Below are positions 6,868 to 12,034 of a DNA stretch of 52,853 bases, piece by piece. The notes beneath the pieces were generated by a model, which saw only the letters and a program-made list of their open reading frames with translations, was not told the DNA's origin and did no database searches. Source of the stretch: a virus; IMG/VR virus record IMGVR_UViG_3300027816_000138, positions 1 to 52,853 of that record; one strand, 5' to 3'. Each line of letters begins with the position of its first letter. Positions within the stretch are counted from its first letter, which is position 1. The translations under genes and the position numbers were made by a program.

Positions 6868-7482
6868 ATGGAATCTGATATTATAAAAATTAAAAATATA
6901 AGATTTTTCGTATCAACTTCATACGAAGAAACTTTACCTTTATTTTTTTCAACGCAAAATATACAAGATGGGTTATATAAAAAAAATGAAAATTATTTTT
7001 TAGTATTAGACAATATTCCATACTCTACAGATAACAGTATAAATTCAAATCAAATAGAAACTTCTGAAATACAAGATAAGAATTATATATTTTCTATTAA
7101 AAAACATTTCTTATATAAGATAGCAAGAAAATTAAAAGATAAAAATATAACACCAGATAATCCTATATTTAAAACCGAAGTGGAAAAACTTTTAATAGAA
7201 TTTTTTAGCGGTAAGCTTAAAGACAAAACAAAAAACCCAGAGCGAGCTGTAAGATTTTTATTAAATACTTCATATAAAAGTTTTTATAATTATTTCATAA
7301 ATAAAATTATAACATTATCATACTCTTTAAAATCAAAAGGATTTGAATTAAAAGAAGATAATATATTTACCGTTCTAAATGATAAAGGCGCTTTAATATT
7401 AACTAATGGTGTTCTTAGATATATTTGTTGTTTTTTATTGAATATTGAAGAAATTCCTGCGATAATAAATTATTCTGAATAA
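6868..7482 (+). CDS. Unknown protein upstream of the carbamoyltransferase
   Basis: 204 residues, not recognised. Seen: very Lys/Asn/Ile-rich; IKNIRFFVSTSYEETLPLFF at the N-terminus, a central helical region (KKHFLYKIARKLKDK) and a C-terminal hydrophobic stretch with a Cys pair (LRYICCFLLNIEEIP). No leader-type start and no signal peptide. The stop overlaps the ATG of the carbamoyltransferase (7482), so the two genes share a transcript from the TATAAATA at 6854 and may act in the same process. Confidence 0.6.
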   Translation: MESDIIKIKNIRFFVSTSYEETLPLFFSTQNIQDGLYKKNENYFLVLDNIPYSTDNSINSNQIETSEIQDKNYIFSIKKHFLYKIARKLKDKNITPDNPIFKTEVEKLLIEFFSGKLKDKTKNPERAVRFLLNTSYKSFYNYFINKIITLSYSLKSKGFELKEDNIFTVLNDKGALILTNGVLRYICCFLLNIEEIPAIINYSE

Positions 7483-8915
7483 TGATAATTTATGGAATAA
7501 ACGAAACAACTCACGATTCAGCTTTATCAGTTATAAAAAATGGAGAAATACTTTTCGCTTCTCATTCAGAGAGATATAGTAAAGTAAAAAACGATTGGTT
7601 TTTAAATCAAGAAATAATTAATAATGCTTTTGAATATGGAGTTCCGGATGTTATAGCATATTATGAAAATCCTTTTTTAAAAAATTTAAGATTGTTTTTT
7701 CGAGGAGGTAAAGGTGGAGATGTTCCATATTTTAAAACTAACTCTTTGTTAAAAAACATTCCGGTTAAATATTTTAAACATCATTATTCTCATGCTTCTG
7801 CTGGATATTTTACAAGTAAATTTAAAAATGCTACAATAGTTGTATTAGATTCTATAGGAGAATTTAATACATCTAGTATATGGTTGGGAAATGATAATAA
7901 AATAAAAAAGATATATAGTCAAAATTATCCAATCAGCTTTGGTCTTTTTTATAGCGCATTTACAAAACTACTTGGACTGGAACCAAATAAAGAAGAATAT
8001 ATAATGATGGGGATGGCTGGATATGGAAACCCAGAAAAATATTATAATAAAGTAAATTCATATTTTCCTAATACAAAAAAACAAAAATATAATTTTCATA
8101 AAGGAATATATGATTGGGATGAACTAGTAGACGAACAAAATAAATTTGATATAGCAGCATCAGTTCAAAAAGTTTATGAAGAAAGAATGATGGAGTTTAT
8201 GTTATATGCTTACAAAAAAACAAAATGTAAGAATTTAGTTTTTATGGGTGGGTGTGCTCTTAATTGTTCTGCTAATACATTACTATGGAAAATATTTGAT
8301 AATGTTTGGATTATGCCAAATCCCGGAGATGCTGGTAGTAGTTTAGGAGCCGCTTGTGCTTTATATAATGACTTTGTTAATTGGGAAACACCATATTTAG
8401 GATATGATATAAAGAAAACATATCCAATAGATAATATACTAAACAATTTAAAAACAGATAAGATAACTGCTGTTGCTTATGGTAGAGCAGAATTTGGACC
8501 AAGAGCTTTAGGGAATAGAAGTATATTAGCAGACCCTAGAGATCCAGATATAAAAGATAAAGTTAATGAAATTAAAAATAGAGAATTGTTTAGACCATTT
8601 GCTCCAATAGTGTTAGAAGAATATAGTAAACAATGGTTTGATATGGAGTTTGATTCTCCGTATATGCAATATGCTGTAAAATGTAAAAAACCAAATTTAA
8701 TACCATCGGTTGTTCATGTTGATGGAACATCAAGAGTTCAAACTATAAACAAAAAACAAAATAAACATTTATATGAACTTCTATTTAAATGGAATGAATA
8801 TAGTGGTGTTCCTGTTCTTTTAAATACAAGTTTAAACATTAAAAACGAACCACTATTAAACGATGAAATTGATATTAATAAATGGATTATTAAATATAAA
8901 AAAAATATAAACTAA
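7482..8915 (+). CDS. NodU/TobZ-family carbamoyltransferase
   Basis: 477 residues, a little shorter than typical members. Seen: N-terminal ASKHA-like domain with KHHYSHASAGYF (99-110), VLDSIGE (121-127), GGCALNCSAN (256-265) and PGDAGSSLGAA (281-291); then a carbamoyl-transfer domain with GRAEFGPRALGNRSILADPR (334-353), FRPFAPIV (370-377) and PVLLNTSLN (444-452). Family knowledge: these enzymes make carbamoyl-adenylate from carbamoyl phosphate and ATP and pass the carbamoyl group to a hydroxyl; one viral relative is reported to carbamoylate 5-hydroxymethylcytosine in DNA. Substrate here is unknown. Neighbouring SGNH-hydrolase genes may belong to the same pathway. Confidence 0.9.
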   Translation: MIIYGINETTHDSALSVIKNGEILFASHSERYSKVKNDWFLNQEIINNAFEYGVPDVIAYYENPFLKNLRLFFRGGKGGDVPYFKTNSLLKNIPVKYFKHHYSHASAGYFTSKFKNATIVVLDSIGEFNTSSIWLGNDNKIKKIYSQNYPISFGLFYSAFTKLLGLEPNKEEYIMMGMAGYGNPEKYYNKVNSYFPNTKKQKYNFHKGIYDWDELVDEQNKFDIAASVQKVYEERMMEFMLYAYKKTKCKNLVFMGGCALNCSANTLLWKIFDNVWIMPNPGDAGSSLGAACALYNDFVNWETPYLGYDIKKTYPIDNILNNLKTDKITAVAYGRAEFGPRALGNRSILADPRDPDIKDKVNEIKNRELFRPFAPIVLEEYSKQWFDMEFDSPYMQYAVKCKKPNLIPSVVHVDGTSRVQTINKKQNKHLYELLFKWNEYSGVPVLLNTSLNIKNEPLLNDEIDINKWIIKYKKNIN

Positions 8916-9046: not shown

Positions 9047-9289
9047 ATGCCGAAAAAAAGTAATTGGGATAAAAGAATGAAGCCTAAAGAAATTGAAAAA
9101 AGAAAAAAAATGAATTCCGCATTTTTAATACAAAACTTTTCGATTGAAGAGGTTCTAGATGAGAGTGGGGAAGTATTAGAAGATACCGTTATCCGCTTTT
9201 CTTTTGATGGTCTTTTAGTTTATTTATCAATACCAAATTCAATGAAATTATGTAAGTCGTTATCTGATATATTGAACTTAAAAAAATGA
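9047..9289 (+). CDS. Small unknown protein
   Basis: 80 residues. Seen: a strongly basic N-terminus (MPKKSNWDKRMKPKEIEKRK) followed by a beta-like region (DTVIRFSFDGLLVYLSIP) and a C-terminal helix. Not recognised. Its stop overlaps the ATG of the SGNH-hydrolase-like gene at 9286, so the two are translationally coupled and share the TATAAGTA at 9028. Confidence 0.6.
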   Translation: MPKKSNWDKRMKPKEIEKRKKMNSAFLIQNFSIEEVLDESGEVLEDTVIRFSFDGLLVYLSIPNSMKLCKSLSDILNLKK

Positions 9290-10110
9290 CAAATAGTTTA
9301 AAAAATTATTTTTTAAGTAAAACATTTAATTCTCAATTACACGATACTATATGGGATATAGATTCTTTCGATAGTAAAAACATACATACTAAAACAAATG
9401 ATATTGATAAATTAGATACTATAAAATATGAAGTAAATGAATATGGTTATAGGACTTCCGAAGAAACAAATAATTTTTTTAATGAAAATTTGATAGGGTG
9501 TTTTGGATGTAGTAATACCTTTGGTATGGCTATTGAGTATAAGGATACTTGGCCTTTTTTGTTAAACAAATTTATAGGTGATGAATGGTGCGTTAAAAAT
9601 TATGGAGTACCCGGAGGTTCAAATGATAACATATCTAGATTAATATATAATTTTGTTTCAAATAAAAAACCAAAAATTATATGTTGTTTATTTCCAGATT
9701 TTTTTAGAATGGAATTTTTTGATGTTAATTCGGATTTAAAAAATTTTAGAAAAACTGAAAACAAAGAGATATTAAAAACATATTCTTTTATACAACATGA
9801 ATTTTATATGGCTTATAAAAAAATTTCAACTGAAGATAATGGAATTTATAACTTTATAAAAAATTTTAAGTTTATACAAAATTTATGCGACAACAAAAAT
9901 ATAAAATTTTATTGGTCTACATGGGCTAGAAATATATATTGTTTAGATAAATCTTTCATAGAAAGACATTTAAATATTAATAATTACGTAGACTTAAGTC
10001 ATTTAGAATCTAATATAGATTATGGTTTAGATGGAATACACTTCGGACCAAATACAAGTAAAAATATAGCAAAAGAATTTTACGATAAAATCACATCGCA
10101 AAAACCCTGA
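9286..10110 (+). CDS. SGNH/GDSL hydrolase-like protein (paralogue of 10080-10940)
   Basis: 274 residues. Seen: GCFGCSNTFG with candidate nucleophile Ser76, NYGVPGGSNDN (105-115) with the Gly and Asn oxyanion-type residues, and D249-G-I-H252 near the end. Family knowledge: this order of Ser, Gly, Asn and DxxH blocks is that of SGNH esterases and acetylhydrolases, which remove acyl groups from sugars or lipids. A segment around 47-80 is almost the same as in the gene on the opposite strand (NEYGYRTSEETN). The two reading frames overlap tail to tail by 31 nt. Substrate unknown; proximity to the carbamoyltransferase suggests small-molecule or DNA-modification chemistry, or virion glycan processing. 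Confidence 0.75.
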   Translation: MTNSLKNYFLSKTFNSQLHDTIWDIDSFDSKNIHTKTNDIDKLDTIKYEVNEYGYRTSEETNNFFNENLIGCFGCSNTFGMAIEYKDTWPFLLNKFIGDEWCVKNYGVPGGSNDNISRLIYNFVSNKKPKIICCLFPDFFRMEFFDVNSDLKNFRKTENKEILKTYSFIQHEFYMAYKKISTEDNGIYNFIKNFKFIQNLCDNKNIKFYWSTWARNIYCLDKSFIERHLNINNYVDLSHLESNIDYGLDGIHFGPNTSKNIAKEFYDKITSQKP

Positions 10111-10940
10111 GCTATTTTTTCATTTACTTCTCTTCCGAAGTGTCCATTATCTCTAGCTTTAGGTTGATTACAAAAATGCGTGTCGTGTTCAACGACTTTA
10201 ATTCCGTTTTCGTTTAAGAATTTTTTTGTTGTTTCTTCGTTGAAATTAAAAATTGTTTTCGACCAAGTAGACCAGTATAATTTTATATCATGTAATTTAC
10301 ATATTGTTTCTATGAATTTAAAATTTTTAACAAACATATAAACGCCAAAGTCTTCATTTATGATGTTTATGTAATTTTGATAAATTTTTTTATTTTGATG
10401 CTTTGAATATACTGGAGTAAAATTTGATAGTTTATCATCAGAAAATAATTCCATTCTAAAAATTTCGGGAAAAAAACAACATATTATTTTTGGTTTGTGT
10501 GATATTGTATAATTGTATATCAATCTACTAATTGTATCCATGGAAGCCCCACACACTCCATAATTTTTAACACACCAATCTACTCCCAATTTATCGTTTA
10601 ATTTAGCACTCCAAGTTTCGTTCCAAGGTAAACCATAACCAAAAGTGTTACTACAACCAAAACAAGCTATTAAATTTTCATTAAAAAAATCGTTTGTTTC
10701 TTCGGAAGTTCTATAACCATATTCATTTAACTCGTATAATACATCTGAAGGTTTGTATTCTTTATTTCCTTCTTTGTTGTATTCTTCTTTTTCATCGTTG
10801 CAATACCAATTTACAGATTTTATTATTTGTCCGTTAAAATTTAAATTATTCCAATTATGTTCAAGTTCTGGTAAAAAGGTATCTTGATTTTCACCGAAAA
10901 GAATTTTACATATTTTTCTTAATGATTTAAGTTCTACCAT
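10080..10940 (-). CDS. SGNH/GDSL hydrolase-like protein (paralogue of 9286-10110)
   Basis: 286 residues. Seen: ACFGCSNTFGYG with candidate Ser97, NYGVCGASMDTISRLIY, FWPs replaced by CCFFPEIFRMELF as in the paralogue, LYWSTWSKT and D264-N-G-H267. Same SGNH order of motifs as gene 9286, with a different N-terminal ~60 residues. The two copies now face each other and their last codons overlap by 31 nt, so an inverted duplication or independent insertion is inferred. Stop to start contact with the gene at 10940 (ATG/TAA overlap region) suggests leftward co-transcription with 10940-11386. Confidence 0.75.
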   Translation of the reverse strand: MVELKSLRKICKILFGENQDTFLPELEHNWNNLNFNGQIIKSVNWYCNDEKEEYNKEGNKEYKPSDVLYELNEYGYRTSEETNDFFNENLIACFGCSNTFGYGLPWNETWSAKLNDKLGVDWCVKNYGVCGASMDTISRLIYNYTISHKPKIICCFFPEIFRMELFSDDKLSNFTPVYSKHQNKKIYQNYINIINEDFGVYMFVKNFKFIETICKLHDIKLYWSTWSKTIFNFNEETTKKFLNENGIKVVEHDTHFCNQPKARDNGHFGREVNEKIAQGFCDVILS

Positions 10941-11445: not shown

Positions 11446-11453
11446 GATAAGTA
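11446..11453 (+). promoter_or_regulatory. Late-promoter-like octamer GATAAGTA upstream of hsp20
   Basis: Lies 65 nt before the hsp20 ATG, much further than other such octamers, giving a leader that contains the left arm of the flanking inverted repeat. Confidence 0.35.
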
Positions 11454-11461
11454 TGTATAGT

Positions 11462-11481
11462 TCTGGTGCTCACAAAGGCTA
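11462..11481 (+). repeat. Left arm of inverted repeat flanking hsp20
   Basis: TCTGGTGCTCA (11462-11472) is perfectly complementary to TGAGCACCAGA at 12017-12027; the adjoining CAAAGGCTA also pairs with TAGTCTTTG (12007-12015) with one mismatch. Confidence 0.75.
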
Positions 11482-11505
11482 GACAAACATATACCTCGCT
11501 TAAAA

Positions 11506-11511
11506 AAGGAG
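11506..11511 (+). promoter_or_regulatory. Shine-Dalgarno sequence of hsp20
   Basis: AAGGAG with a 7-nt spacer to the ATG at 11519. Such a clear ribosome binding site is exceptional in this window. Confidence 0.8.
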
Positions 11512-11518
11512 AAAATAT

Positions 11519-11998
11519 ATGACAAACATAACAACATACACACCCGGACATTATTCGTCCACAGAAAGGGTATTCAGCCAATTACCCGCTCTGTTCAATG
11601 ATGATTGGCTAAACACCGTAATAAACGATTGGGAGAAGGCATTTGAAGTAAAGAATGCTGTTTACCCATACAACATTAAAGCAATTAAAAATGCTGACGG
11701 AGGAGCAGACAAATACATTGTAGAAGTTGCTCTAGCCGGTGTTGGAAAAAATAACATTGATGTCAAAGTCCGAGATGGACATTTGAATATTGATGTTCTT
11801 AAAGAAGACAAGGATGATGATAAGAACGTTTCTTATGTCAAAAAAGGAATAAGCAAGCGTAAAGGAAGTCTTTCTTTTGTCTTGAATGAAAACACAGATG
11901 CTAAAAACATCACATCAACATACGTGGATGGTTTATTGCGAGTAACCGTTCCCGTAAAACAACCGGAGGTCTATAACATAGATATTAAGGTTGACTAA
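11519..11998 (+). CDS. hsp20: Small heat shock protein, Hsp20/alpha-crystallin family
   Basis: 159 residues. Seen: an N-terminal region with LPALFNDDWLNTVINDW, an alpha-crystallin domain starting near NIKAIKNADGG with YIVEVALAGVGKNNIDVKV, RKGSLSFVLNEN, and DGLLRVTVPVKQP near the end. Family knowledge: ATP-independent chaperone that holds unfolded proteins; T4-like cyanophages carry one near structural genes. Odd: it has a proper Shine-Dalgarno sequence, more GC-rich codons than neighbours, and lies between arms of an inverted repeat (11462, 12007-12027). Horizontal acquisition as a cassette is inferred. Confidence 0.93.
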   Translation: MTNITTYTPGHYSSTERVFSQLPALFNDDWLNTVINDWEKAFEVKNAVYPYNIKAIKNADGGADKYIVEVALAGVGKNNIDVKVRDGHLNIDVLKEDKDDDKNVSYVKKGISKRKGSLSFVLNENTDAKNITSTYVDGLLRVTVPVKQPEVYNIDIKVD

Positions 11999-12006
11999 GT
12001 TTCGAT

Positions 12007-12027
12007 AGTCTTTGCTTGAGCACCAGA
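12007..12027 (+). repeat. Right arm of inverted repeat flanking hsp20
   Basis: TAGTCTTTG then TGAGCACCAGA, complementary to 11462-11481 with a 2-nt bulge and one mismatch. Begins 9 nt after the hsp20 stop. Confidence 0.75.
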
Positions 12028-12034
12028 GACTTTT

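Follow-up and report, generated by a model that had tools for sequence, protein, structure and literature searches.

We analyzed a 52,853-nucleotide (nt) stretch of virus DNA (IMG/VR virus record IMGVR_UViG_3300027816_000138; the whole stretch is referred to as the window) in which hsp20, a gene for a small heat shock protein, is bracketed by two complementary arms. In the reading that we favor, with a probability of about 0.62, each arm supplies one strand of a long-range RNA stem: in a group of uncultured aquatic phages, the late hsp20 mRNA would carry a thermometer leader at its 5′ end and be closed by an end-to-end clamp that guards or defines its ends. The two ends of the predicted hsp20 message are complementary in the manner of an mRNA whose 5′ untranslated region (5′-UTR) pairs with its 3′-UTR. 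Like this pairing, all structures described below are predictions backed by comparison of related loci.

The initial annotation had noticed an inverted repeat around hsp20, and the repeat is there: TCTGGTGCTCA (11462-11472) and TGAGCACCAGA (12017-12027) are perfect 11-nt complements lying 544 nt apart. It had further described a longer match with one mismatch and a 2-nt bulge. The inward extension (AAAGGCTA / TAGTCTTT) and the bulge hold, but the "mismatch" is a G·U pair in RNA, and the match also extends outward (AGT...ACTT). The complete 5′ arm, with which the hsp20 mRNA is predicted to begin, thus covers 11459..11488 (+) and faces a 3′ arm at 11999..12032 (+) that starts directly after the stop codon. 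The predicted energy of the 5′/3′ duplex was −34.7 kcal/mol, against −14.5 ± 3.0 kcal/mol in dinucleotide shuffles, none of which (0/5000) was as low. Since the exact 11-nt repeat by itself turned up in 17 of 5000 shuffles, it is the extended match that counts. The ten strongest 5′/3′ pairings among 200 open reading frames (ORFs) of the window and related contigs all belonged to hsp20 copies. The arm pair occurs once in the 52.8-kb record; no other gene of the record is flanked by it, although the initial annotation had raised that prospect. When viral contigs were scanned for the arm pattern, single matches appeared in many contigs, at about the chance level by rough estimate, and both arms together were found in the L130 contig only.

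Related loci were gathered by protein similarity, without use of the arms, which gave 63 viral loci, 50 of them distinct in their flanks. The leader motif CTCGCTT (CTTGCTT in two cases) was present in 41 of the 50. All 41 showed strong 5′/3′ complementarity (z from −4.8 to −10.4), in which a 5′-terminal arm pairs with a 3′ arm that follows closely on the stop codon. The other nine (L140, L154, L158, L162, L167, L169, L171, L172 and L174) had neither the leader motif nor 5′/3′ pairing; this subgroup lacks both the ROSE-like leader described below and the 3′ arm, and no obvious Shine–Dalgarno (SD) sequence precedes its start codons.

Covariation was analyzed in an alignment (A4) of 32 distinct loci and 14 outer pairs. 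Paired cells made up 93.4%, as compared to 79.5% in shuffled alignments and 24-46% in slid registers, a percentage that is biased towards the structure because the structure was chosen from these same sequences. More robust measures are how often both sides change and which pair types occur. Two-sided changes occurred at 13 of the 14 outer pairs, in 67 cells as compared to 16 after shuffling, and the covariation score was 0.512 (shuffled, 0.242 ± 0.016; 0/500 as high). With the arms aligned independently, the cross-arm pairs of highest mutual information fell on one antidiagonal. Cognate arms paired at −37.2 kcal/mol, whereas permuted partners reached −23.6 ± 0.9 kcal/mol (0/10000 as low). When full transcripts of 18 loci were folded at 25 and 37 °C, every one of them had ∼18-37 base pairs expected between its two UTRs, and at both temperatures the full-length folds preferred the long-range stem to a local hairpin within the 5′ arm (hairpin I, see below). 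G·U cells outnumbered A·C cells (25 versus 7; 9 versus 3 among inner pairs), an excess that favors pairing in RNA of the hsp20 strand. Of the two explanations offered by the initial annotation, a long-range RNA stem joining the mRNA ends is therefore strongly supported, by covariation in some 40 loci combined with fixed placement, at the predicted start of the message and immediately behind the stop codon, and no conserved arm sequence.

The message would begin at the 5′ arm. In the 41 loci, agreement with TATAAATA was highest at positions −13 to −6 relative to the arm, with a mean of 5.15 matches in 8 (background 2.82 ± 0.25). This is the spacing between a T4 late promoter and its start site. 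Because a late-promoter-like octamer sits at this distance, the hsp20 message probably begins with the arm itself. The octamer of the window, GATAAGTA at 11446..11453 (+), matches TATAAATA at 6 of 8 positions and lies one base further upstream than usual.

In all 41 leaders, the stretch from the arm to the start codon contains CUCGCUU (CUUGCUU in two loci) opposite AAGGAG or AAGGA. In the window, this ROSE-like hairpin II occupies 11495..11511 (+) and consists of the anti-SD sequence CTCGCTT (11495-11501) with a bulged G, a loop, and the SD sequence AAGGAG (11506-11511), so that the clear SD sequence of the initial annotation is indeed present. Directly downstream of this leader follows hsp20 (11519..11998, +; 159 amino acids; PF00011, E = 9.4e-16; phrog_432, E = 3.8e-18). 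Its GC content, also singled out by the initial annotation, is raised locally (35%, as compared to 21% before and 28% after the gene), but 35-42% is reached elsewhere in the window. The predicted SD was unpaired to 5-15% at 15-45 °C in the 41 leaders and to ∼50-65% in controls and shuffles. Deletion of the bulged G in silico locked the SD and abolished the residual opening.

By its predicted anatomy the leader is ROSE-like: a U(U/C)GCU motif is imperfectly paired with the SD and contains a bulged G, and there are two or more hairpins with a stable one at the 5′ end. No Rfam ROSE model matched the window or 16 loci at the gathering score, and none matched the window region up to E = 10; the assignment as ROSE-like is thus by anatomy only, and a match to an Rfam model would be membership of a library, which lies outside the published definition of ROSE-like elements. 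The manA motif was considered since it has been reported before ibpA genes; it matched neither the window nor the 16 loci searched with Rfam. We predict that the leader acts as an RNA thermometer of the short ROSE-like kind, and it is common among the hsp20 genes of phages. When viral contigs were scanned for its exact pattern, hsp20 lay behind 74 of the 92 leaders that had an ORF; a few further hsp20 genes that are truncated or diverged, and some eight short proteins without a family assignment, were also found. Thus, in L203, L211, L217, L238, L245, L255, L284 and L289, CTCGCTT...AAGGAG precedes proteins of 63-84 amino acids that have no convincing Pfam match and on inspection resemble phasins; a similar thermometer may thus control a second gene.

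The 5′ arm can also fold on itself. In the window, this hairpin I spans 11462..11483 (+; TCTGG-TG-CT-CACAA-AG-G-CTAGA). The strict pattern stem-UG-stem-loop-stem-G/A-stem was found in 66 of 115 loci as compared to ∼2 in shuffles. Broken down into three groups, it was found in 20 of 41 loci, in 8 of the 9 loci of the subgroup without leader, and in 38 of 65 loci (shuffled, 0.7, 0.2 and 1.3, respectively). Local folds of the 5′ arm had a mean z of −2.2, with 90% below −1, whereas the 3′ arm gave −0.7. The predicted hairpin I is therefore kept in the 5′ arm beyond what composition or passive complementarity would yield, although that of the window itself is weak (z −0.8 in the identical locus L129).

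How far does the clamp extend among phages? Only 2 of 68 leader-bearing loci outside the clade of the window reached z below −4, and both are contigs already in the clade set. No comparable clamp was present in eight cyanophage and pelagiphage hsp20 regions, where the best duplexes were scattered pairs or involved terminator hairpins. Twenty-one phage records matched hsp20, all below 36% identity, and these eight regions are the ones examined; no isolate with a clamp was found. A search of genome contigs for the hsp20 of the window gave no match. The initial annotation had made its case depend on relatives sharing the arms. Relatives with hsp20 and no arms do exist (cyanophages, pelagiphages and the nine-locus subgroup, which has no 3′ arm), but all sampled motif loci of the window's own clade keep the arm. 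Since the leader is common to many phage hsp20 genes and the 3′ arm is confined to the clade, the 3′ arm, which reads as hairpin I in antisense, is this clade's addition to a widespread leader.

What may the clamp do? Intrinsic terminators were identified in 3 of 41 loci with arms, in 9 of 9 without leader, and in 29 of 66 with a leader but without a 3′ arm; none was found in the 3′ arm of the window. SD access was 0.047 in the full-length and 0.056 in the 3′-trimmed mRNA at 25 °C in silico. A function of the 3′ arm as an additional mask of the SD was ruled out by this calculation, because removing the arm hardly alters SD access. With SD access unaltered and terminators mostly missing, the likeliest role of the clamp is to protect the mRNA ends, to define them, or both.

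We propose the following course of events. A T4-type late promoter would start transcription at or beside the nucleotide with which the 5′ arm begins, as judged from promoter spacing. During synthesis, the 5′ arm could form hairpin I, and CUC(G)CUU would bury the SD in hairpin II; together, the two hairpins would act as a short ROSE-like thermometer that limits translation until the cell is warmed. Once made, the sequence after the stop codon would pair with the 5′ arm over ∼25 base pairs and close the mRNA end to end. The clamp might then hide the 5′ end from 5′-end-dependent decay and supply a duplex at the 3′ end instead of a terminator hairpin. More tentatively, and with less confidence than in the clamp itself, these mRNAs may form a class with an intrinsic clamp, in which the 5′ hairpin of a virus-borne ROSE-like thermometer has gained a co-evolving 3′-UTR partner. 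This partner would stand in for the terminator and switch the message between an open nascent and a closed mature form. If so, the output of a late phage chaperone would answer both to temperature and to completion of the transcript.

Several points weigh against the reading as a clamped thermometer mRNA. The transcription start is placed by promoter spacing alone, and the protective role is argued from absent terminators and unaltered SD access; moreover, the association with terminators partly tracks clade membership. According to Vienna energies, hairpin II would melt only to a modest extent up to 45 °C. The distinction between sense and antisense strand is weak: there is uncertainty in the outer register, and the duplex energies show no significant difference between the two strands (Wilcoxon p = 0.11). 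The loci share ancestry, so that the shuffle counts are not probabilities. Finally, the pairing may join the ends of a single mRNA or link two mRNA molecules.

The main competitor, which we regard as possible though rather unlikely, is a timed switch resembling that of hok. The nascent mRNA would keep hairpin I and be translatable subject to the thermometer; later, the 3′ arm would capture the 5′ arm and render the full-length mRNA inert or sensitive to RNase III until its 3′ end is trimmed. Both structures of the 5′ arm do appear to be maintained, the local hairpin by its z-scores (compared with those of the 3′ arm) and the long-range stem by its covarying pairs, and the hok 3′ fold-back as well as the pairing of the icaR 3′-UTR with the SD, an RNase III substrate, are precedents. 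In hok and icaR, however, pairing involves the translation initiation region, whereas here it stops several nucleotides upstream of the anti-SD sequence and leaves SD access unaltered in silico.

RNase III could instead cut a longer late transcript at the duplex and separate the hsp20 mRNA from the RNA that follows it, which often holds tRNA genes. The stems of pre-rRNA are the model for such a processing stalk. Several loci have tRNA genes close behind, the duplex has sufficient length for cleavage by RNase III, and terminators are few. This explanation is nevertheless improbable: the promoter abuts the 5′ arm, which leaves no leader for processing to remove, and the next gene of the window is on the opposite strand, its stop codon 7 bp past the arm core.

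The other proposal of the initial annotation, a transferred cassette with terminal repeats, fared differently in its two halves. Transfer is supported. One gene neighborhood is common to the window, L129 and L135, and a different one to L130, L131 and L132; even so, the hsp20 unit of L130 is 92% identical to that of the window at the DNA level despite different flanking genes. The shared block runs from 60 nt before the start codon to 47 nt after the stop codon, that is, from arm to arm, and homology between contexts usually ends at or near the arms. Four-fold sites of the two units agree at 48 of 62 positions, so that unselected homologous flanks, if they had been carried along, should still be recognizable. 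The presence of the whole arm-to-arm unit at different genome positions means that it moves as a one-gene module. The arms as ends read by a recombination or transposition enzyme that moved hsp20 between phage genomes are another matter, and we consider this very unlikely in spite of the shared block with its differing flanks. The arms vary widely between lineages and yet stay complementary, unlike ends read by one enzyme; their position is fixed relative to the start and stop codons; and most loci have a late-promoter-like octamer immediately beyond the arm. No transposase was seen beside the unit, no target-site duplication was noticed by eye, and the unit is present in a single copy per record. 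A transposon with terminal inverted repeats was rejected, as the arms are single copy in the record and differ in sequence between lineages. Homologues empty exactly between the arms had been suggested as a check; no clean empty site was recognized among the contexts compared. Movement of the module does not appear to require the arms to be recombination ends, and their freedom of sequence argues against it. Chance complementarity in AT-rich phage DNA, to which the short repeat by itself might be ascribed, is refuted by all covariation and permutation tests.

Some other features of these contigs deserve mention. In the window, two tail-to-tail genes, 9286-10110 (+) and 10080-10940 (−), encode clearly similar proteins (common YGYRTSEETN.FFNENLI.CFGCSNTFG); blastn showed inverted similarity of ∼300 nt at ∼75% in the 9286-10940 stretch, and neither protein had a Pfam match. 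A large carbamoyltransferase (Nol-like; PF02543/PF16861, phrog_1601) lies at 7482-8915. A phage contig of the same group carries a tmRNA gene (L137:609-1068) with the tag peptide EAEYIFNNADEFLAGVEEDECLLAA, and in L196 a group I intron (232-464; Rfam RF00028) precedes tRNA genes by a short distance upstream of the hsp20 locus.

To our knowledge, very few cases of conserved pairing between both ends of a bacterial or phage mRNA exist. Here, covariation in about forty phages supports such pairing from sequence alone, beside a predicted ROSE-like thermometer. Together the loci make up a natural series, from clamped through leader-bearing but unclamped to those with neither clamp nor leader, and the effects of mRNA closure on decay, 3′ end formation and thermosensing can be tested on it directly. 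The data suggest that aquatic phages control a late chaperone by temperature. Within the open-access papers searched, we found no report of a ROSE-like leader on a phage hsp20 gene or of its 3′ arm. The phage RNA thermometers listed in PMC11182007 are those of lambda cIII, SPbeta blyA and a gut Caudoviricetes sigma70; blyA and sigma70 are of the fourU type, and none of those listed is ROSE-like or located before hsp20. The manA RNA motif (PMC2864571) is a phage 5′-UTR element reported before ibpA chaperone genes, among others.

The closest relatives of the leader are the short ROSE-like thermometers of Pseudomonas ibpA (PMC3669281), in which hairpin II is formed by pairing between U(U/C)GCU and the SD, and hairpin I lies near the 5′ end with a role described there as incompletely understood. 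The phage leader resembles them in this SD pairing, in a bulged G whose loss locks the SD (here in silico) and in its 5′ hairpin I. It differs in its late-type promoter, its very short anti-SD helix and the UG/G internal loop of hairpin I, and in the clade of the window hairpin I has a 3′-UTR partner, with which the Pseudomonas elements have not been described. In icaR of Staphylococcus aureus (PMC3868564), the 3′-UTR pairs with the SD region and creates an RNase III substrate. That pairing engages the SD itself and represses, whereas the phage mRNA would pair its 5′ terminus and leave the SD under a separate element; unlike in icaR, the sequence of the phage arms changes freely with compensation. 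The full-length hok mRNA folds its 3′ end back to the 5′ region (PMC5502269), and the phage 3′ end would likewise return to the 5′ region and close the mRNA. The phage locus, however, has no toxin/antisense pair, and its arms would pair at the extreme 5′ end, beside a thermometer, and would not cover the translational region. Because the arms pair upstream of the SD and predicted SD access is unaltered, we do not class the phage clamp with repressors of the icaR or hok type.
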